The position numbers and the translations under genes were made by a program. From Bradyrhizobium sp. PSBB068 (GTDB taxonomy: Bacteria; Pseudomonadota; Alphaproteobacteria; Rhizobiales; Xanthobacteraceae): a stretch of DNA of 64,000 nucleotides. Below are positions 39,443 through 51,302 of the stretch, in pieces. Each line of letters opens with the position of its first letter. Position 1 is the stretch's first letter. The notes under the pieces are model-generated. The model was not told where the DNA came from. It did no database searches and saw nothing but the letters and a program-made list of their open reading frames with translations. The stretch covers positions 6,520,001 through 6,584,000 of the forward strand of contig CP069300.1 of NCBI GenBank assembly GCA_016839165.1, written 5' to 3'.

Positions 39443-41797
39443 TCAGCCAGCCGCGCGGCGCGGCATCGTGTTGGTATCGGGCTCGGAGGGCGCCGGGATC
39501 TGCATCAGGATGGTCTGGCCCATCGAGGCGATCTCGATGCCCTCCTCCTGGAAGCGGCGCTTCATGCGGCGGTTGAACTCGCGCTGCACCGACCAGCGGC
39601 CGCCATCGGTGCAACGGATCTGGCCAACGATGGTGACGACCGAGCCGTCGACCTTGTCGACGCCCCACAATTCGAGGTCGCCGCGGATCAGCGCGCGATA
39701 CGTGGTCTCCTGGCGCATCCCCGCCACGATGTCCTTCAGCACCTCGCCGGCGCGGTCGGTGTCCTCCTTGTAGGACACGTTGACGCTGACCGCGGCATTG
39801 CCGGCGCCGCGGCTGGCATTGGTGATCGTGGTCACCGCGCTGAACGGCACGACATGCACGGAGCCGTCGCCGGCACGCAGCCGCATGGTGCGGATCGAGA
39901 CGTTCTCAACCACGCCCGAGAGGCCCGACACCGTGACGGTGTCGCCGACCTGCACGGTGTTCTCGATCAGGAGGAACAGCCCGGTGATCAGGTCCTGCAC
40001 CAGCTTCTGCGAGCCGAAGCCGATCGCGATGCCGACGATGCCGGCGCCGGCGAGCAGCGGCGCGACATTGACGCCGATCTCGCTGAGCGCGGTGAGCCCG
40101 ACCACCGCAACGATCATGCAGAACAGCGCGGTGCGCAGCATCGGCTGGAAGGTGCGCAGGCGCGCCGCGCGGGCGTAATGCCCCTCGCGCGACAGCGTGT
40201 CGACCTGGCGATCCATCAGCGCATTGGCGCCTTCCCAGATCACGGCCGCGGCAAGCGCGGCGATGCCGATCGTCATCACCGCCGAGATCAGCCGGGAGCC
40301 GATCTGGCCGCCATAGAACCAGACGATGGCATCGACGCCCCAGACCTCGAGCAGCGCGACGAAACCGATCACGGCAATCACCGCCGTGACCACCTTGCGC
40401 AGCAGCGGCAGATAGCGGTTGGCGCGGGTCTCCAGCCCCGGGAAGCGCTGCATCAGGTCCGGGCTGATGCGGAAGCCGCGATCGATCAGGCTCAGCACCA
40501 CCATGGTGACGAGGCGGGTGACCAGCAGCACCGCGACGGTGCCGACGAAATATTGCAGCAGCAGCGAATAGCCGTTGCGGATGTTGAGCGCCCACACCGC
40601 CCATAGCGCGAGGTCGAGCGCGATCGCCAGCACATGCCAGAGCGAGGCGAGACGGTTGCGCGTCCGCGCCGCAAGCCCGGTGCGATCGGCCGGGGCGCGG
40701 ATGACATCGGCGACCTGCCGGCGACACTGCAGAATGATGACGACAACGAACAGATGCACGATCAGCATCACGAGCCGCAGCAGCGCGGCATAGCCGGCGC
40801 GATGCAGCCCGAGCAGCAACGCGACATTGGCAAAGCAGATGCCCGATACGCCGACCGCTACAATGCGTCGCGCCCAGATCTCGATATAGGCCGCGGTTTC
40901 GGCCCGGACGCGGAACAGGCCGAACGGACCGGCCAGCGCCCGCACCGCACAGATCAGCGCCCGCGAGAGCGCATAGGCATTGACGACCGCAAGGATCACG
41001 AGCCGGGTGGTCGACTGGTCGCCGATCTCGGTGCCGAGCAGCGCGGTGGCGACGCTGACAAAGACCACGACCGGCAACAGCTCGAGCACGAGGCGCCCGA
41101 GCACGAAGGGCAGCCGGATCACCGACTGCCAGGCCCGCGCCAGGCTGAGCCGGCGGCGATGCAGCTCGGGCTCCGGCGTGACGTCGGCGACCGACGACGG
41201 CGGATCGGCGCTGGCGAGCGCCTGCGCCGGCACCCGCGCCGTCTGCGGCAATCGCTGCTCCAGGAACGCCACCGGCCGCTTGATGAGGCGGAACACCACC
41301 CACTCGACAAGCAGCGCGCAGCCGAACACCAGCGCCAGCTTCCAGGCGATATCGATCAGCAGGCCATAGGCAGCCGGATCATTCGCGGTGCGCAGGAACC
41401 AGTAGTAGAACGACGGAAAGTTGGTCAGCGTGCGCGCGACATCGGCAACCTCGCGCGACATCTCGCCGACCTGTTCGGACACCATCAGCAGGAGCTGCGC
41501 GCCGAGACTGTCCGCGGTGAGCGGGATCGGCGAATGCTGCTCGGGCACAGGCTCCGCAGCCACCGGCTGGGCAGCAGCCTGCGGCGAGGCCTTGGCGATG
41601 GCGCGCAGCGTGTTGATGATCTCGCCGCGCTTCTTGTCGTCCTGCAACGTCTCGAGCGCGCGCTTGGCTTGCTCAGGCGTCAGCGTGTCGCTGGTAACGG
41701 GCTGCGGCGAAGCCGGCTTGGCGCCCGGCTGCGCCAGTGCGGGAGAGATGAGCAGAGTGAAGACGAGAAGAATCGCAAAACGGAGTCTGTGCGACAC
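39443..41797 (-). CDS. Large mechanosensitive channel of the MscS superfamily (YbiO-like)
   Basis: About 784 residues from a GTG with a GAGG ribosome site; this start gives a good signal peptide (RLRFAILLVFTLLISPALAQ). A periplasmic N-terminal segment is followed by some ten membrane helices, and the MscS pore helix VAPLLAGAGIVGIAIGFGSQKLVQDLITGLFLLIE leads into a beta domain (VQVGDTVTVSGLSGVVENVSIRTMRLRAGDG). Its size and architecture resemble E. coli YbiO. It should gate on membrane tension. The longer frame to 41866 is not used. It is the second MscS-type gene in the window. Confidence 0.92.
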   Translation of the reverse strand: MSHRLRFAILLVFTLLISPALAQPGAKPASPQPVTSDTLTPEQAKRALETLQDDKKRGEIINTLRAIAKASPQAAAQPVAAEPVPEQHSPIPLTADSLGAQLLLMVSEQVGEMSREVADVARTLTNFPSFYYWFLRTANDPAAYGLLIDIAWKLALVFGCALLVEWVVFRLIKRPVAFLEQRLPQTARVPAQALASADPPSSVADVTPEPELHRRRLSLARAWQSVIRLPFVLGRLVLELLPVVVFVSVATALLGTEIGDQSTTRLVILAVVNAYALSRALICAVRALAGPFGLFRVRAETAAYIEIWARRIVAVGVSGICFANVALLLGLHRAGYAALLRLVMLIVHLFVVVIILQCRRQVADVIRAPADRTGLAARTRNRLASLWHVLAIALDLALWAVWALNIRNGYSLLLQYFVGTVAVLLVTRLVTMVVLSLIDRGFRISPDLMQRFPGLETRANRYLPLLRKVVTAVIAVIGFVALLEVWGVDAIVWFYGGQIGSRLISAVMTIGIAALAAAVIWEGANALMDRQVDTLSREGHYARAARLRTFQPMLRTALFCMIVAVVGLTALSEIGVNVAPLLAGAGIVGIAIGFGSQKLVQDLITGLFLLIENTVQVGDTVTVSGLSGVVENVSIRTMRLRAGDGSVHVVPFSAVTTITNASRGAGNAAVSVNVSYKEDTDRAGEVLKDIVAGMRQETTYRALIRGDLELWGVDKVDGSVVTIVGQIRCTDGGRWSVQREFNRRMKRRFQEEGIEIASMGQTILMQIPAPSEPDTNTMPRRAAG

Positions 41798-42121
41798 GAA
41801 GGCCTCATAAAAACAATCGCGCGACGGAAGATTCCTGCAAGAGAATCTGCCCCGCGCTCGCGTCATGTCGGATTATTCCTTTTCGCCCCGATGATGTGTC
41901 GGAAGTTTGCCGCTGTGGCGGCCATGTCTTGGCATTTGCCGCAACACAATCGTCACAAGTGTTGAGCGGCGTTTACGCATGCAACGCGCATCCCGCTGGG
42001 CCGGCCGAGCCGGGTCACCACACGTCAGGGATGAGACGCCGGAATCTTTCGCTTGACGCAGGCCGGCGGCCATGATGTTCTTATTTTGTTCTTTTGGTTC
42101 CGATTGCGTTTCGAGGTGATC
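41798..42121. other. Divergent intergenic region
   Basis: 324 bases between the large MscS gene and the ClpS-AAA gene contain no supported gene. They should hold both promoters. A TTGACG hexamer at 42053-42058 could be a -35 element for the AAA gene, but no good -10 follows at 16-18 bases. Confidence 0.4.
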
Positions 42122-43855
42122 ATGCACGACGTGTTCAGCGACGACGGTCCGGTCCGGCTCTTCATTCATGATGACGACGAAACGCCGCTGGAGTTCGTGC
42201 AGGACCTGTTGCGTACGGTGTTCGGGAAATCCGAGCAGGAAGCCATTGCCTGCGCCGCCTTGATCGAGGCCAACGGCGCTATTCCCTGCGGCCCCTATCC
42301 GGGACCGGTCGCACGGGCCATCTTCAACTCGGCGAAATGGCTGATCCGCTCCAACGGCCAGCCGTTGATGATTAGCACCGAATCCGCCGACGCCAGCCGC
42401 CCCTGCGATCTCTGCGAAGCCCCGCGGGCCGTGACGGAGATTCTGATCCCCGGTACGACGACTGCATCGCTGTGCAGCGACTGCCTGCTCGCGGCACGCC
42501 GCAGTTCGGAAGACTTGCCGGGCGAGACGTTTCGATCCGCTTACGTTGCGCTCGACTGGCATTTCGCCGGCGTGCCGCGCAACCTGATCGTGACACGGGC
42601 GCGACAGTTTCCGGGCCACATGCGCGCCGATGTTCAGGTCGCGATCGACAAGCTGTTCACCGATCCGATCCATTTCTTCGGCATCCATGAGGAATATCGC
42701 TACGAGACGCTCGACTTCGCGGCGCTGATGAAGGCTGGCCGCAATGCACCGGCGATCGCGCCGCCGCAATATCGCGATGTCGATATCGGCGAGGCCGAGC
42801 CGGTGAAGTGCCTCGTCAATGGACTATGGCTGTGCCGAACCGGCGAGCTGCGCTACGCCGTGCTGCTGACATTCTATCGCGAATACAATCACGAGCCGTC
42901 GCTGCGCATTGAGATTGCGTTACCTGCCGGCGCGGCCGGCAATGCTTTCGTGCAACGCACTTTCGCCGAGCTGGAAACGGCCGTGCATGCGGCGCGCTCC
43001 TATCGCGGCAAGATCCTGTCGCTGGAGGATGGCGCCAATTATCGCGGACGTTCGCGTGGTCTGACCGTGCATCGCCTGCCGACGGTCGCCCGCGACGACG
43101 TGATCCTCCCGGACCGGACGCTGCGGCTGCTCGACCGCAACGTGCTCGGGTTCGTCGACAGCCGCGATCTGCTGCGCAAGCTCGGCCAGTCGACCCGCAA
43201 GGGCATCCTGCTCTACGGCCCGCCCGGCACCGGCAAGACCCACACCATTCGCTATCTCGCCACCAGCCTGCCCGGCCACACCACGCTGATCATCACCGCC
43301 GAGCAGGTTGGCCTGCTCGGCGCCTATATGAGCCTCGCGCGACTGCTGCAGCCGACCATGGTGGTGATCGAGGATGTCGACCTGATCGCGCGCGACCGCG
43401 AGGACATGGGCGGACCGTGCGAGGAATCCCTGCTGAACAAGCTGCTCAACGAAATGGACGGCCTGAAGGAGGATTGCGACATCCTGTTCGTGCTGACCAC
43501 CAACCGGCCGGAAGAGCTGGAAGGCGCGCTGGCCGGTCGGCCCGGCCGCATCGACCAGGCGATCGAAGTGCCGCTGCCCGACGAGGCAGGCCGCGGCAAG
43601 CTGATCCGGCTCTACGGCCGCGGCCTGCCGCTCGTACCGTCCGTCATCGATGCAGCGGTGCAGCGCACCGAAGGCGTCAGCGCCGCCTTCATCAAGGAAT
43701 TGATGCGCCGTATCGCCCAGGCCAGCATCGCCCGCGACGGTGGCCAGGATGTCACCGCTGACGACATCGACGGCGCACTGAACGAGATGTTGTTCGACGG
43801 CGGCCGGCTCAATCTGAAGCTGCTCGGCGGCGCGCAGGGAATGAGCGCGGGGTGA
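42122..43855 (+). CDS. ClpS-like / zinc-finger / AAA+ ATPase fusion protein
   Basis: 577 residues from an ATG behind GAGGTGATC. Residues 10-85 resemble the Clp adaptor ClpS (VRLFIHDDDETPLEFVQDLLRTVF ... EANGAIPCGPYPGPVA ... QPLMIST). Residues about 95-125 hold two CxxC pairs (CDLC and CSDC) like the ClpX N-terminal zinc finger. After a linker domain of ~190 residues comes one AAA+ module with Walker A GPPGTGKT, Walker B VVIEDVD, sensor 1 LTTNRPEE and arginine finger RPGRID, closest in style to FtsH/Cdc48-type ATPases. No protease domain and no ClpP-docking IGF loop were seen. It probably recognises N-degron-like or other substrates and unfolds them. It is transcribed alone. Confidence 0.88.
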   Translation: MHDVFSDDGPVRLFIHDDDETPLEFVQDLLRTVFGKSEQEAIACAALIEANGAIPCGPYPGPVARAIFNSAKWLIRSNGQPLMISTESADASRPCDLCEAPRAVTEILIPGTTTASLCSDCLLAARRSSEDLPGETFRSAYVALDWHFAGVPRNLIVTRARQFPGHMRADVQVAIDKLFTDPIHFFGIHEEYRYETLDFAALMKAGRNAPAIAPPQYRDVDIGEAEPVKCLVNGLWLCRTGELRYAVLLTFYREYNHEPSLRIEIALPAGAAGNAFVQRTFAELETAVHAARSYRGKILSLEDGANYRGRSRGLTVHRLPTVARDDVILPDRTLRLLDRNVLGFVDSRDLLRKLGQSTRKGILLYGPPGTGKTHTIRYLATSLPGHTTLIITAEQVGLLGAYMSLARLLQPTMVVIEDVDLIARDREDMGGPCEESLLNKLLNEMDGLKEDCDILFVLTTNRPEELEGALAGRPGRIDQAIEVPLPDEAGRGKLIRLYGRGLPLVPSVIDAAVQRTEGVSAAFIKELMRRIAQASIARDGGQDVTADDIDGALNEMLFDGGRLNLKLLGGAQGMSAG

Positions 43856-43862
43856 TCGCCGG

Positions 43863-45977
43863 TCAACGCGCCAAACGAGGCGGCAGCAGCAACTCGCGCT
43901 CGCCGGCGGCAACGCGCGCGAGTTCATCCGACATCCGCGCCAGCACGCGGTCCCAGGCCTGCGGTCTGTCCTGGCGGAACAGCCGCATGGTCGGATACCA
44001 GGGCGTGTCGGCGCGATCGCGCAGCCAGCGCCAGTCGAGCGCATAGGGACACAGCATCCAGACCGGGCGCCCGAGCGCGCCGGCGAGATGCGCCACCGAG
44101 GTGTCGACGGCGATGACGAGATCGAGCGCGCAGACCGCCGCCGCGGTGTCGGCGAAATCGCCGAGCGTCGGCGCGAGGTCGACGATATCGGCGCCGAGTC
44201 GCCGCAGCACCGGCGCATCGTCCGGTCGCGGCTCTTTCTGCAGGCTGTAGAGCTGGACACCAGGCGTGACCAGCCGCGGCAGCACGGCGTCCGCCGGCAG
44301 CGAGCGCTGGCGGTCGCCCTTGTGCCTGGGATTGCCGGCCCAGACCACGCCGACCTTCAGCGCGGACACGCCGCTGAGCGCGTCGCGCCAGCGGGCAAGC
44401 TTGCCGGCATCCGCCTGCAGATAGGATGTCGCCGCCGGAATGGTCTCGACGGTGGTGCGGAAGATCCGCGGCAGGCTGAGCAGCGGCAATTGCAGATCGA
44501 ACGGCGGCAATGGCTCGCCGCGGGCAAACACCACGACACCGGGCAGCATCGGCCGCAGCAGCGCGACCAGCGCCGGCTGCACCTGGAGCATGATCCGGCC
44601 GCCTTTGCCCATCAGCATCGGAACGTAGCGGACGAAATTGATGACGTCGCCGAGCCCGTATTCGGCGAACAGCAGCAGCGTTCGTCCCGCCAGCGGCTCG
44701 CCCTGCCATTCCGGCTCGTCGAACACGGGATCGCCATCGCTCAGCATCCTGGTCTTGCGGCGCCACTGATACTCTTCAAAGCCCTCCTCGAACTCGCCGT
44801 TCATCAGCAGGAAATGCGCGTGGTTGTAGTGCGCCAACGGCTGTTCGGGATCGAGCGTGATGGCCCGGCGCGAAGACACGATCGCCGCATCGATGTCGCC
44901 GGCATTGCGCAGCGCGACCGCCAGATTGGCGTGCCCCTTGGCATAGAGCGGTTCGATCTCGATGGCGCGCCGATGCGCCGCGACCGCAGCCTCGACCAGA
45001 TTCTGCGCCTCGAAGATGATTCCGAGATTGGTGTGCGCGGCAGCGTAATCCGGCTTGAGCGCCAGCGCGAGCTCGGCGCAGGCGATCGCCTCGTCGACTT
45101 GCCCAAGCTCGAACAGGCAGGCCCCGAGATTGTTGAGGATGACGTGATCGGAGGGATCGCGGGCCGAGAGCTGCCGGTAGAGACGGACCGCCTCCTCGCG
45201 CTCGCCGCGTTCGTGCAGCACCATGGCAAGCAGGCGCTGCGGCGCGAGGTTGCCCGGATCGAGCGCCGTTGCGCGCCGGTAGTGCAGGATCGCGTCCTCG
45301 AGCCGGCCCAGGCGGTAGAGCGCCGCGCCAAGGCCGCCATGCAGCCCGGGATTGTCGGGATCCAAGCCAAGCCCGCGGCGATAGGCGGTGACGGCAGCGT
45401 CGTGCTTTTTCTGATCGGTGAGCGCATTGCCGAGATTGAGCCAGACGCCGCGATAGGCCGGATCGCGCGCGATCACCTCACGATAGGCTTGCTCCGCCTC
45501 GACCGGCCGCTGCTGCCCGGCCAGGGCAACGGCAAGGTTGAACCGCGCCCGCGTCAGGCCGCCGTCGAGCGCGATGGCGCGGCGGAACGCCGCCTCGGCC
45601 TCGTCGAAGCGCGACAGGTCGCACAACGCCACGCCGAGCTTGATGTGCAGGCCGGCATCCTTCGGCCGCAGCATCACGCCGCGCTGAAACGCCGCCACTG
45701 CGCCTTCGTGCTCGCCCTTCACGGCGAGCGCATCGCCGAGCGTGCCGAACGCCGGTCCATGCTGCGGATCGAGGCTGAACACCCGGTTCAGCAGCACTGC
45801 GCCTTCCGCGGCGCGATCGGTCACGAAGGCGATGACGGCGGACAGATGCAGCGCCGGAATATGGTCGGGATCGGCGGAGAGGATGTCGCCGCACAGCGTG
45901 CCGGCCTCCATCGCGCGCCCCGCGCCGTAATGCGCCACCGCATCCAGCAACATCCGATCAATCGCCACCTTGCCCAT
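43863..45977 (-). CDS. TPR-repeat protein with C-terminal glycosyltransferase 9-like domain
   Basis: About 704 residues. A long run of roughly a dozen 34-residue TPR units (for example YRGVWLNLGNALTDQKKHDAAVTAYRRGL) spans residues 10-400. A C-terminal domain resembles heptosyltransferase/GT9 and TPR-linked glycosyltransferases: KVGVVWAGNPRHKGDRQRSL and DLVIAVDTSVAHLAGALGRPVW, the latter a nucleotide-sugar binding hallmark. Related bradyrhizobial proteins are often near surface polysaccharide or flagellin glycosylation genes; none is nearby here. The start at 45977 follows GGCGGGGG; the frame to 46097 overlaps the Rrf2 operator. Confidence 0.87.
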   Translation of the reverse strand: MGKVAIDRMLLDAVAHYGAGRAMEAGTLCGDILSADPDHIPALHLSAVIAFVTDRAAEGAVLLNRVFSLDPQHGPAFGTLGDALAVKGEHEGAVAAFQRGVMLRPKDAGLHIKLGVALCDLSRFDEAEAAFRRAIALDGGLTRARFNLAVALAGQQRPVEAEQAYREVIARDPAYRGVWLNLGNALTDQKKHDAAVTAYRRGLGLDPDNPGLHGGLGAALYRLGRLEDAILHYRRATALDPGNLAPQRLLAMVLHERGEREEAVRLYRQLSARDPSDHVILNNLGACLFELGQVDEAIACAELALALKPDYAAAHTNLGIIFEAQNLVEAAVAAHRRAIEIEPLYAKGHANLAVALRNAGDIDAAIVSSRRAITLDPEQPLAHYNHAHFLLMNGEFEEGFEEYQWRRKTRMLSDGDPVFDEPEWQGEPLAGRTLLLFAEYGLGDVINFVRYVPMLMGKGGRIMLQVQPALVALLRPMLPGVVVFARGEPLPPFDLQLPLLSLPRIFRTTVETIPAATSYLQADAGKLARWRDALSGVSALKVGVVWAGNPRHKGDRQRSLPADAVLPRLVTPGVQLYSLQKEPRPDDAPVLRRLGADIVDLAPTLGDFADTAAAVCALDLVIAVDTSVAHLAGALGRPVWMLCPYALDWRWLRDRADTPWYPTMRLFRQDRPQAWDRVLARMSDELARVAAGERELLLPPRLAR

Positions 45978-46085
45978 ACCGCCCCCGCCTTCAAGACCCC
46001 GATGCGGATTAAACGCGCGACGTTGCCAAATCCGGCACGCGAATATCGGATCGCGGCCCGCCAACGCCCTCTTGACGCTCGCCCC

Positions 46086-46112
46086 ATCATGTAACATATG
46101 AAGTTACATGAT
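46086..46112. promoter_or_regulatory. Perfect 10-bp inverted repeat overlapping the Rrf2 start codon
   Basis: ATCATGTAAC (46086-46095) and GTTACATGAT (46103-46112) are exact inverted copies 7 bases apart. The right arm contains the start codon of the Rrf2-family gene, so binding of that regulator would block its own expression and that of the following methyltransferase. Confidence 0.75.
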
Positions 46113-49047: not shown

Positions 49048-49560
49048 CTAGAGCTGGCGGCGGCGGATGGTCTGGGCGAGCTCGACAAAGCTTTCCGCGA
49101 TGCCGACGCCTGTCTTGGCGCTGACCGACTTGACGCTCGACTTGGCGAGTGACTTGGCGAGCCCGGCAATCGCGCCGGCGCTGCCCGCGGCTTCCGGCAG
49201 GTCGATCTTGTTCAGCAACGCGCGGTAGGGCCGGCCCGGAAAGCGCTCCTCGAAACCGCGGACCAACTCGACCATCCGGGTCACGGTCTGCGGCCGCGTG
49301 ACGTCGGAGACGATGATGGCGGCAGACGCGCCGGTGACGTAGACGGTGTCGAATATCTGCGTGCCGAAATCGCCGTCGGTATCCCACAGCACGAGGCGCA
49401 TCGGATCGCCGCCGTCGGCCGGCGCCACGTCGTGGCTCAGGATCTCGACGCCCAGCGTCGATTTGTACTGGCCCTCGAACCGGTTGTAGATCAGCCGGTA
49501 GAGGATCGACGTCTTGCCGACCCCCATATCGCCGAGCAGCATGACTTTCGCGGTGAGCAT
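49048..49560 (-). CDS. Ras/Rab-like small GTPase
   Basis: 170 residues, a complete Ras-superfamily G domain in a bacterium. G1 is GDMGVGKTS, G2 Thr lies in KSTLGVE, G3 is WDTDGD, G4 is NKID and G5 is SAK. The Gln that follows DxxG in Ras and Rab (DTAGQ) is Asp here, so intrinsic GTP hydrolysis should be slow and a partner GAP likely. There is no lipidation motif. Its ATG overlaps the stop of the preceding OmpA-family gene by one base (TGATG), so the two are translated together. It probably acts as a nucleotide switch for that membrane protein. Confidence 0.9.
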   Translation of the reverse strand: MLTAKVMLLGDMGVGKTSILYRLIYNRFEGQYKSTLGVEILSHDVAPADGGDPMRLVLWDTDGDFGTQIFDTVYVTGASAAIIVSDVTRPQTVTRMVELVRGFEERFPGRPYRALLNKIDLPEAAGSAGAIAGLAKSLAKSSVKSVSAKTGVGIAESFVELAQTIRRRQL

Positions 49561-51302
49561 CAGCGGGCCACTTCGCCTCGATAGACCGTCTCGAACGCGA
49601 CGCGGCGGTTGCCGCCGACGGTGGCGTCGAGCCGGTCGGTGATCGGCATCGCCGCAGCGCGCGACACCAGGATCAGTCGCGACGGATCGACACCGAGCGC
49701 GGTCAACCTGCGCTGGACCTGCTCCGCCCGCTTGCGCCCCAGCGTCTTGTTGGTGCCTTCGGTGCCGCTCTGATCGGCGTAGCCGACGACCCGTATCTTG
49801 AGATCGCTGTTCGCCAGCAGTCCGGCGAGCTCGCGCAGCTGCTGCTCGGCCTGGTCGTTGTAGAGGACTTCATCCGAATTGTTGGCGAAGAAGATCGCGG
49901 TCGAAGAGATGAAGCGGTCGAGCCGCGCCGTCGGGCCGTCGGCGACGGATTGCAGCTTCGTAAATTGCTCACCCAGTTTCGCGTACTGCTCGCCGAGCTT
50001 GTCATACTGCGCGGTCAGCCCGGCGATCTTCTGGTCGCCCGACTTCGCCTGCGCGCTCATCGCCTCGCGCATCTGGTCGAGGCTCGCCTGCAGGCGCTTC
50101 AGGCTTTCTGCGATGCTGGCCTGCGATGCGGCAAGCTGATCCGGCGCGGACACGAGCCCGATCCGGTTGACGATCCTGTACGGCGCCGCGGCCGCAGCGA
50201 GCGCGTCGATCAATGGCGCGGTCTCGAGCTGGCTCGGCTCGATTCCCGTAACGGCCACGCTTGCCTTGCCGTGATCGAAGTCGAGCCGTAGCGGGAACGT
50301 GGCCAGCAACGGCTGCTTCGCTGCGAGCTGGTCGAGCGCCGCATGGGTCCGCCGCTCGAAAAGACTGCGCGACACCGAGGTCGCGGCAAGCCAGAGCAGC
50401 AGCGCCAGCACAGCGGCGAGCACGCCAAACAGGATCACTTTGCCGCGCCGGCCTGCGATCCGCGGCGGCGTATCATCGGTCTCGATCGCGGCTGCGAGCG
50501 AGGCAAGCATCGGGCCATCGCAATCCGCGCCCCGGTCGATGCGCTCGATCGCGTCGAAGAATAGCGAATTGATCCGGGCATTGTCCGCCGGGCGCAGCGG
50601 GCCCAGGCACTCCGCGGCCAGGATGAAGCGGGGTGAGGCGCGCAGCGCGATCTGCCGGCCGCCGAAATCGAGCGTTTGCAGATTGCCCTCGCCGGCGAGC
50701 GCCTGCACCGAGAACTCCAGGATCGCGGCCACCATCGCGCTGAGCAGATCGGCGCGCTCGTCGGGGGTCGCGTCGCGCTTCCAGTCGGCGATCAGGCGGC
50801 CGTTGCCGCGCTCGATGATCAGCAGCCGGTTGACCCGCGGCGGGCTGTCGGCCAGCACGAACTCGCTGATCGGGCGCCCCGTTGCCAGCGACTTGATCCG
50901 CCCCACCCACAGTTGCGCCGAGGTCAGCGCGTTGATGCGCTGCTCGAGCGAGGCAACCACCTCCCTGAACGCATTCGCAACCGCGGCGCTGACCAGCCGG
51001 CCGACGATCGGATAGAGCGCTTCGATCATCTGCTCGCGCGAATTCTTGATCTCACTGCGGATCGCGGAGACCACCACCGGCGCGATCGCGCTGGCGAGCT
51101 CGCGCGGCCGGTTGACCTCGGCGCGCTCCAGCGCCTCGACCAGAATGCCGGCGGTGGCCGTCTCCAGGCGATCGGAATTGCCGACATAGCGCTGCAGCGA
51201 GTCGAGGTCGGCCTCCAGCGACGACAGGCGCGTCGCCTCGGGCTGAAACAGCAATGTCTTGAGCTGCTCGATCTCGCGATTCTGGCCGGCAGCAGCTGCC
51301 AT
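49560..51302 (-). CDS. Inner-membrane OmpA-family protein with roadblock-like cytoplasmic part
   Basis: 580 residues. The N-terminal ~280 residues are cytoplasmic: a short IEQLKTLLF motif, helical segments (residues ~30-130), then about residues 165-245 with a roadblock/LC7-like pattern (NRLLIIERGNGRLIAD ... LLSAMVAAILEFSVQAL ... LDFGGRQIALRASPRFILAAE). One membrane helix (VILFGVLAAVLALLLWLA) lies near 287-306. The periplasmic part has a BON-like segment, a coiled coil with KLGEQYAKLGEQFTKL repeats, and a C-terminal OmpA peptidoglycan-binding domain (FFANNSDEVLYND ... VVGYADQSGT ... LGRKRAEQVQRRL). It links a cytoplasmic GTPase to the cell wall. It lies two bases after the coiled-coil gene and is coupled to the GTPase. 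Confidence 0.88.
   Translation of the reverse strand: MAAAAGQNREIEQLKTLLFQPEATRLSSLEADLDSLQRYVGNSDRLETATAGILVEALERAEVNRPRELASAIAPVVVSAIRSEIKNSREQMIEALYPIVGRLVSAAVANAFREVVASLEQRINALTSAQLWVGRIKSLATGRPISEFVLADSPPRVNRLLIIERGNGRLIADWKRDATPDERADLLSAMVAAILEFSVQALAGEGNLQTLDFGGRQIALRASPRFILAAECLGPLRPADNARINSLFFDAIERIDRGADCDGPMLASLAAAIETDDTPPRIAGRRGKVILFGVLAAVLALLLWLAATSVSRSLFERRTHAALDQLAAKQPLLATFPLRLDFDHGKASVAVTGIEPSQLETAPLIDALAAAAAPYRIVNRIGLVSAPDQLAASQASIAESLKRLQASLDQMREAMSAQAKSGDQKIAGLTAQYDKLGEQYAKLGEQFTKLQSVADGPTARLDRFISSTAIFFANNSDEVLYNDQAEQQLRELAGLLANSDLKIRVVGYADQSGTEGTNKTLGRKRAEQVQRRLTALGVDPSRLILVSRAAAMPITDRLDATVGGNRRVAFETVYRGEVAR

Follow-up and report, generated by a model that had tools for sequence, protein, structure and literature searches.

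A ClpS domain joined to a YjoB/Bcs1-like AAA module in a patchily distributed gene of Bradyrhizobium

The window, the whole 64-kb stretch of DNA that was analysed (G000:C1:6520001-6584000, in the 7.67-Mb genome of Bradyrhizobium sp. PSBB068), holds a gene whose product carries a ClpS domain, a four-cysteine (Cys4) segment, a middle domain and an AAA module on one chain. The ATG at 42122 is common to this gene and a 95%-identical orthologue (L002). The features are as follows.

42122..43855, + strand: whole gene, ClpS - Cys4 knuckle - middle domain - AAA, 577 aa plus stop (ORF, Pfam, orthologues)
42149..42373, + strand: ClpS domain, residues 10-84 (Pfam, phmmer, residue counts)
42404..42484, + strand: zinc-knuckle-like CxxC...CxxC segment, Cys 95, 98, 118 and 121 (weak match to the ClpX C4 finger)
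42533..43030, + strand: middle domain, residues 138-303 (predicted sheet with a long C-terminal helix)
43154..43801, + strand: AAA module, residues 345-560 (classic clade, YjoB/Bcs1-like)
43217..43240, + strand: Walker A GPPGTGKT, residues 366-373 (alignment A3)
43292..43327, + strand: pore-loop-1 stretch of Cdc48/FtsH, here 8 residues shorter, residues about 391-402, including VGL 396-398
43361..43381, + strand: Walker B VVIEDVD, residues 414-420, in ED order
43502..43504, + strand: Asn461, sensor 1 by position (alignment A3)
43538..43549, + strand: R473 and R476 in GRPGR, Arg-finger pair by position (alignment A3)
39443..41866, - strand: MscS-family mechanosensitive channel, syntenic neighbour, context only
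43863..46097, - strand: TPR protein, syntenic neighbour, context only

Relatives were collected with the middle domain: its RQFPGHMRAD motif served for the genome scan, and a scan of genome contigs with this domain found 105 relatives, of which 80 were kept (L046-L125). Alignment A3 consists of the window protein and 49 of these 80 loci, leaving out near-copies (>93%) and seven truncated or disrupted loci. Bradyrhizobium accounts for 67 of the 80 and Mesorhizobium for 7, with the rest in Aestuariivirga, Taklimakanibacter, a 'Frankia' record and three MAGs. Of 36 genomes of the genus, counting our own, 18 carry the gene or a recognisable part. In 12 of them the copy is full-length and has ClpS; in G001 an in-frame stop interrupts it, in G004 it is divided over two frames, in G025 its 5' end is truncated, in G016 and G021 it begins only after the ClpS and zinc part, and G011 retains a remnant. 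An order-level sample has the gene in 11 of 397 genomes (8 of the 15 same-genus genomes in that sample), and our genome is the sole carrier among 289 in a class-level sample. The family is narrow and patchy in the sampled genomes, mostly Bradyrhizobium, and is under purifying selection, since comparison with 12 window-clade orthologues gives no pairwise dN/dS above 0.41 in any domain, the ClpS and zinc parts among them (simple Nei-Gojobori counts; zinc part usable for 10 of the 12; mean dS reaching 0.98).

The MscS-family channel gene adjoins the fusion gene in 20 of the 80 loci, joined by the TPR gene in 16, and other locus groups have the gene in different surroundings. Clustering of 2983 flanking ORFs, spurious ones included, yields no conserved gene partner among the 60 largest clusters; one of these spans two synteny groups (18 + 1 loci) and the others one each. 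Farther along the window, a Ras-family small GTPase gene (49048-49560, - strand) lies directly downstream of a gene for an OmpA-domain protein (49560-51302, - strand), a pair that recurs in 10 of the 80 loci; many of the loci do not extend that far.

A sequence-only reading of this DNA had described a ClpS adaptor, a ClpX-type zinc finger and an AAA+ ATPase in one protein, and we find that the fusion of ClpS to AAA holds. PF02617 (ClpS) matches residues 10-84 with 39.6 bits against a gathering threshold of 23 (E 4.6e-10, hmmscan), phmmer aligns residues 9-90 with the ClpS chain 2w9r (E 2.3e-5) and residues 9-88 with 1mbu (YljA/ClpS; E 5.7e-5), both without a gap, and ClpS is detected at E<0.01 in all 50 members of A3, an alignment chosen without truncated loci. 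The N-terminal extension is missing, with just 9 residues before the ClpS domain from the ATG at 42122; in E. coli ClpS this extension, residues 1-25, engages the ATPase pore. Our own genome encodes two ordinary copies of ClpS, as well as ClpX and ClpA, elsewhere, so the fusion protein is no replacement for them.

The binding pocket of the fused domain is altered. In E. coli numbering (window residue + 17), N34, D35, D36, M40, M62 and H66 are D17, D18, D19, L23, A45 and E49 of the window protein. Residue counts over the 76 of 80 loci with a complete ClpS region (L060, L066, L081 and L115, truncated or disrupted, were left out), many of them close relatives and ten of them symbiosis-island near-copies rather than independent events, give 0/76 for H66 (E 50, L 11, S 8, D 2, five others), 0/76 for the gatekeeper M40, 10/76 for M62 and 1/76 for E79, which we take to be a contact to ClpA, compared with 31/31, 30/31, 31/31 and 29/31 in a set of 31 ordinary ClpS loci from our own and related genomes. 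D35 (74/76), T38 (75/76), L99 (74/76) and the V43/V65 class of the pocket shell are retained, while N34 stands in 47/76 (D in 26) and D36 in 53/76, all five named residues being 31/31 in ordinary ClpS. The loss of His66 that had been noted by eye is thus confirmed, with Glu in the window and an acidic residue in 52/76 (E 50, D 2); that Asn34 is Asp is correct for the window and fails as a family trait.

The excerpt of PMC12493166 lists pocket residues, names Met40 as the E. coli gatekeeper and gives N47, D49 and H79 as peptide contacts of Caulobacter ClpS, which at an offset of 13 (our own mapping) are N34, D36 and H66. The earlier reading gave N34, D35 and H66 as amino-group contacts; N34 and H66 agree with this source, which has the D36 equivalent instead of D35. 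The three mapped contacts are not retained as a set (D, D and E in the window), and the hydrophobic pocket with the gatekeeper M40 and with M62 is not found in the fusions. The same excerpt treats Leptospira ClpS1, with a His-to-Asp replacement and a changed gatekeeper, as a ClpS adaptor. The pocket has kept its shell, with its entrance and charge changed, which is compatible both with a new specificity and with lost N-terminus binding; an altered substrate choice is a plausible possibility.

Two same-genus loci, L155 (1582-3231, + strand) and L156 (683-2395, - strand), encode what by eye is a beta-lactamase/serine-hydrolase-like domain followed by a C-terminal ClpS that, unlike the AAA fusion, retains NDD, Met40 (TPMEFV) and the His66 equivalent. 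A 238-aa ORF at L157 (3145-3861, - strand) by eye joins a Clp N-domain to ClpS, that is, an adaptor to a docking domain.

The Cys4 segment behind ClpS is real as a CxxC...CxxC pattern and weak as a ClpX finger. The motif C..C.{15,35}C..C occurs in 58 of 80 loci; those without it include the Mesorhizobium group, the symbiosis-island group and L071-L073. The knuckle is dispensable for the architecture. zf-C4_ClpX matches the window weakly (11.6 bits, E 0.26) and reaches E<0.01 in 9 of 50 A3 members (best 1.1e-4), and a ClpX-like identity is possible.

The middle domain of about 165 residues (138-303) has no Pfam family among the best 25 of 27 matches and no PDB sequence match at E<=10. Modelled alone it gives pLDDT 81.4 and pTM 0.78, and the folds listed by a structural search with this model are START/Bet v1-like and weakly scored (best E 2.7e-4, TMq about 0.3); we rejected a START-like assignment on this weak match. 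Neither YjoB nor Bcs1 appears among the 50 matches listed for the domain alone.

The AAA module (PF00004, residues 362-485, 72 bits; hmmscan, window protein) has the motifs for hydrolysis. Walker A, Asn461, which we take to be sensor 1, and Arg473 and Arg476, presumably the Arg finger, are invariant across A3; Walker B reads IEDVD, in the order ED instead of DE. Bcs1 also has ED in its Walker B. A ClpX-type motor was rejected: NCBIfam and PDB sequence matches place the module in the classic clade (PAN, FtsH, Cdc48; best sequence matches Cdc48/p97), the clpX family is absent among the best 25 of 38 NCBIfam matches of the window protein, and a TIGR00382 scan of our own genome marks seven places, of which the window locus is not one and the true ClpX scores 664.9 bits.

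The stretch that carries pore loop 1 in Cdc48 and FtsH is short. HMMER alignment to Cdc48 D2 leaves eight residues missing where the WYG pore loop stands, a gap that is split or placed slightly earlier in other HMMER alignments, and comparison with ten FtsH-like sequences of related genomes, named by motif, leaves out the FVG segment; no aromatic-hydrophobic-Gly pore loop 1 is found, the stretch being 8 residues short against Cdc48 and the FtsH-like sequences. Walker A and the [VI]ED[VI]D Walker B stand 40 residues apart in all 50 A3 members, with three residues more in the plasmid copy L036. Since the stretch is 8 short and of a single length in all 50 members, the motor is, as far as sequence can tell, unlikely to be a threading unfoldase; the earlier reading had called it an unfoldase. 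The missing stretch has a counterpart in Bcs1, which the excerpt of PMC11143374 describes as lacking the conserved pore loop; that of PMC12219900 describes a Bcs1 loop at the pore-loop site (PL1), then a charged DDR motif in contact with the folded substrate.

No protease domain is found among the best 25 of 27 Pfam matches of the 577-aa protein, in agreement with the earlier reading. Its further statement that a ClpP-docking loop is lacking has to be qualified, as a [VIM]GL triplet at 396-398, which to us resembles the ClpA docking triplet, is present in 38 of 50 A3 members (VGL 15, IGL 15, MGL 8); the triplet lies inside a predicted helix of the AAA core (393-408 in the model), outside any Clp-type loop. 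A second triplet, LGF 342-344, is LGF or MGF in just 7 of 50.

An AlphaFold2 model of the full protein built from A3 (pLDDT 78.3, pTM 0.59) was compared with the PDB by Foldseek. Bacillus YjoB (7w42/7w46) ranks first (E 1.6e-18, TMq 0.43-0.44, 461-475 columns), and Bcs1 fills six of the first ten rows (TMq 0.30-0.40), with rmsd of 9-15 A over the long alignments; p97, FtsH and the proteasome ATPases give TMq 0.34-0.38, so that YjoB alone exceeds other AAA proteins by TM-score. The full model aligns to YjoB over 461 columns, whereas the middle domain taken alone has neither YjoB nor Bcs1 among its 50 listed matches. The fusion protein shares with the YjoB/Bcs1 type a single classic-clade AAA module without canonical pore loop 1, the Bcs1 side of this trait being taken from the excerpt of PMC11143374.

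The same motor also occurs without ClpS. A tblastn search of 72,556 plasmids with the middle domain of a ClpS-less relative matches 46 records, all rhizobia by genus (Rhizobium 27, Sinorhizobium 16, Mesorhizobium 2, Paraburkholderia 1), and in 8 of ten plasmid regions examined the ClpS-less gene stands beside nif/fix or P450 genes. It lies between nifK and nifE in L034, where the annotation divides it into two genes on different frames, close to fdxB and to a gene of the NifX-associated kind in L035, upstream of fixABCX-nifA-type genes in L037 and L038, 3.7 kb downstream of a P450 gene with pitrilysin genes following in L039, and directly upstream of cytochrome P450 genes in the Rhizobium plasmids L177-L179; in L177 SDR and polyprenyl synthetase genes follow, an order like that of the gibberellin operon. 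In L036 the gene is beside groESL, VOC and TlpA-type genes, and L180 has none of nif/fix, P450 or the other listed neighbours. A NifA-type UAS lies 78-80 bp upstream of a 1-mismatch sigma-54-type site in L037 and L038, and L036 has such a pair at a greater distance upstream. NifA control as a rule for the plasmid copies was rejected: just 2 of the 10 loci have a pair within 500 bp of the annotated start, against 21 among 3278 background windows.

A ClpS-bearing, zinc-less symbiosis-island group of Bradyrhizobium comprises ten near-identical loci, nine with a UAS-like site; its sigma-54-like site is a 2-mismatch match (L098; visible in the sequence of L101 and L112), and fdxB, nifX and nifN lie 4.4-6 kb away in L101. 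A midpoint-rooted tree of 60 rows splits the plasmid clade from the ClpS-bearing clade with full support, nests the symbiosis-island group inside the latter and also places L015/L016, which lack ClpS, there, as a single loss of ClpS within Bradyrhizobium. If these placements hold, the family entered symbiosis regions twice. The ClpS-less plasmid clade and the nested loss indicate that the motor can be kept when ClpS is absent. For the window copy, too, control by NifA was rejected: TGT-N10-ACA occurs 0 times in the 64 kb against 3.8 expected, no UAS/sigma-54 pair lies within 500 bp upstream of the gene, and no NifH scores above cut-off in the genome, so the window copy is not nif-linked. Two NifH-family matches below the nifH cut-off (195-210 bits; G000:C1:1606933-1607697 and 1633129-1633860) are perhaps BchL/BchX-type subunits of a photosynthetic Bradyrhizobium.

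We favour, at a probability of about 0.5, a ClpS-guided, protease-independent remodelling chaperone of the YjoB/Bcs1 kind, a non-threading AAA protein with its own recognition head. The N-terminal ClpS would capture a client or partner protein, possibly via a re-specified N-terminus pocket; the Cys4 knuckle that often follows could dimerise or bind a partner; the middle domain and the AAA ring would form the body; and ATP hydrolysis would do conformational work on a folded client instead of threading an unfolded chain into a protease. Here we infer ring formation, ClpS as client binder, the handling of folded clients and the direction of the work. Arguing for this are ClpS and AAA together in 50/50 A3 members, YjoB/Bcs1 at the head of the Foldseek matches, the short pore-loop-1 stretch, near-complete loss of E79 and M40 with D35, T38 and L99 retained, dN/dS of at most 0.41 and the separate ClpS, ClpX and ClpA. 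Against it stand Bcs1 TM-scores no better than those of other AAA proteins, the high rmsd, a full-model pTM of 0.59, a middle domain that alone matches neither YjoB nor Bcs1, best sequence matches to Cdc48/p97, the variable gap placement and the persistence of the motor without ClpS in the plasmid clade and L015/L016.

The last point, together with loss of His66 and M40 in 76/76 and of M62 in 66/76 and the better conservation of the middle domain and AAA than of other parts, suits a different division of labour, in which the ClpS fold is a docking or assembly module only, without N-terminus binding, and a Bcs1/YjoB-like body acts on a client recognised by the middle domain. We regard this as possible but on the doubtful side, since the pocket shell retains D35, T38, the V43/V65 class and L99, and since Leptospira ClpS1, where His is likewise replaced by an acidic residue and the gatekeeper is changed, is treated as a ClpS adaptor (excerpt of PMC12493166). 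The remodelling reading can also be extended to an N-terminus-guided, protease-free branch, in which a ClpS pocket of new specificity, through the acidic residue for His66 and the changed gatekeeper, would pass folded proteins that bear particular N-termini on to a Bcs1/YjoB-like ring to be assembled or relocated, and the motor would have been drawn into symbiosis regions on two occasions, one without ClpS and one with it, perhaps servicing nitrogenase or other metalloenzymes; taken as a whole we think this rather unlikely.

Less probable again is the self-contained adaptor-unfoldase of the earlier reading, here taken to thread substrates, whether or not a separate protease takes part. One chain does combine ClpS with an ATPase that has its hydrolysis residues, and the ClpA-loop-like triplet in 38/50 leaves ClpP docking possible by sequence, but the pore-loop-1 stretch is short in all 50 members, no protease domain is among the Pfam matches listed, the AAA module falls outside the ClpX/ClpA clade, and of the two triplets one sits in a predicted core helix and the other is poorly kept. 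A role as an IetA-like ATPase in anti-phage defence or another conflict, suggested by matches of PADLOC IetA to the AAA part (64.8 bits, E 2.2e-18) and of NCBIfam IteA/IetA (56.1 bits, cut-off 510), was rejected as very improbable, as these cover little outside the AAA module, no protease is among the ten window neighbours scanned and the chromosomal neighbours are conserved in 20/80 loci.

The known role of ClpS is that of an adaptor that hands proteins over for degradation. Its attachment to a motor that lacks the usual threading loop would uncouple the reading of an N-terminus from the breakdown of the protein, and would offer a one-protein system for testing whether ClpS-type recognition can serve chaperoning; with plasmid relatives beside nif/fix genes, the same motor is a candidate accessory factor in bacteroids. 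The titles and abstract openings listed by literature searches aimed at such a fusion contain no published ClpS-AAA fusion, and a search for YjoB together with Bcs1 returned no papers; both halves are of known kinds, and by these listings what appears to be new is their combination.

Among known systems, IetA has a related AAA module, with hardly any match beyond it, a score far below the curated cut-off and no protease partner adjoining the fusion gene. ClpX likewise carries CxxC...CxxC before an AAA module, and the fusion protein differs from it in AAA clade, pore-loop-1 stretch and a marginal zinc-finger score. The ClpS adaptors of E. coli, Caulobacter and our own genome are of the same family, gap-free over about 80 residues; the fusion has an ATPase and no N-terminal extension, and H66, M40, E79 and mostly M62 are replaced. 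Leptospira ClpS1 resembles it in having, by nature, an acidic residue in place of His66 and an altered gatekeeper, but is free-standing beside ClpA and has different replacements (excerpt of PMC12493166). Bacillus subtilis YjoB (7w42, 7w46), a chaperone, and mitochondrial Bcs1 (8t14, 8tp1, 9gsn, 6ukp), the first structural matches, align over long stretches and have a single AAA module. The pore loop stated as lacking in Bcs1 (excerpt of PMC11143374) parallels the short pore-loop-1 stretch of the fusion protein, though its TM-scores to Bcs1 are no better than to other classic AAA proteins; it differs from both in its N-terminal ClpS and Cys4 knuckle, and its middle domain, taken alone, has neither of them among the 50 matches listed.
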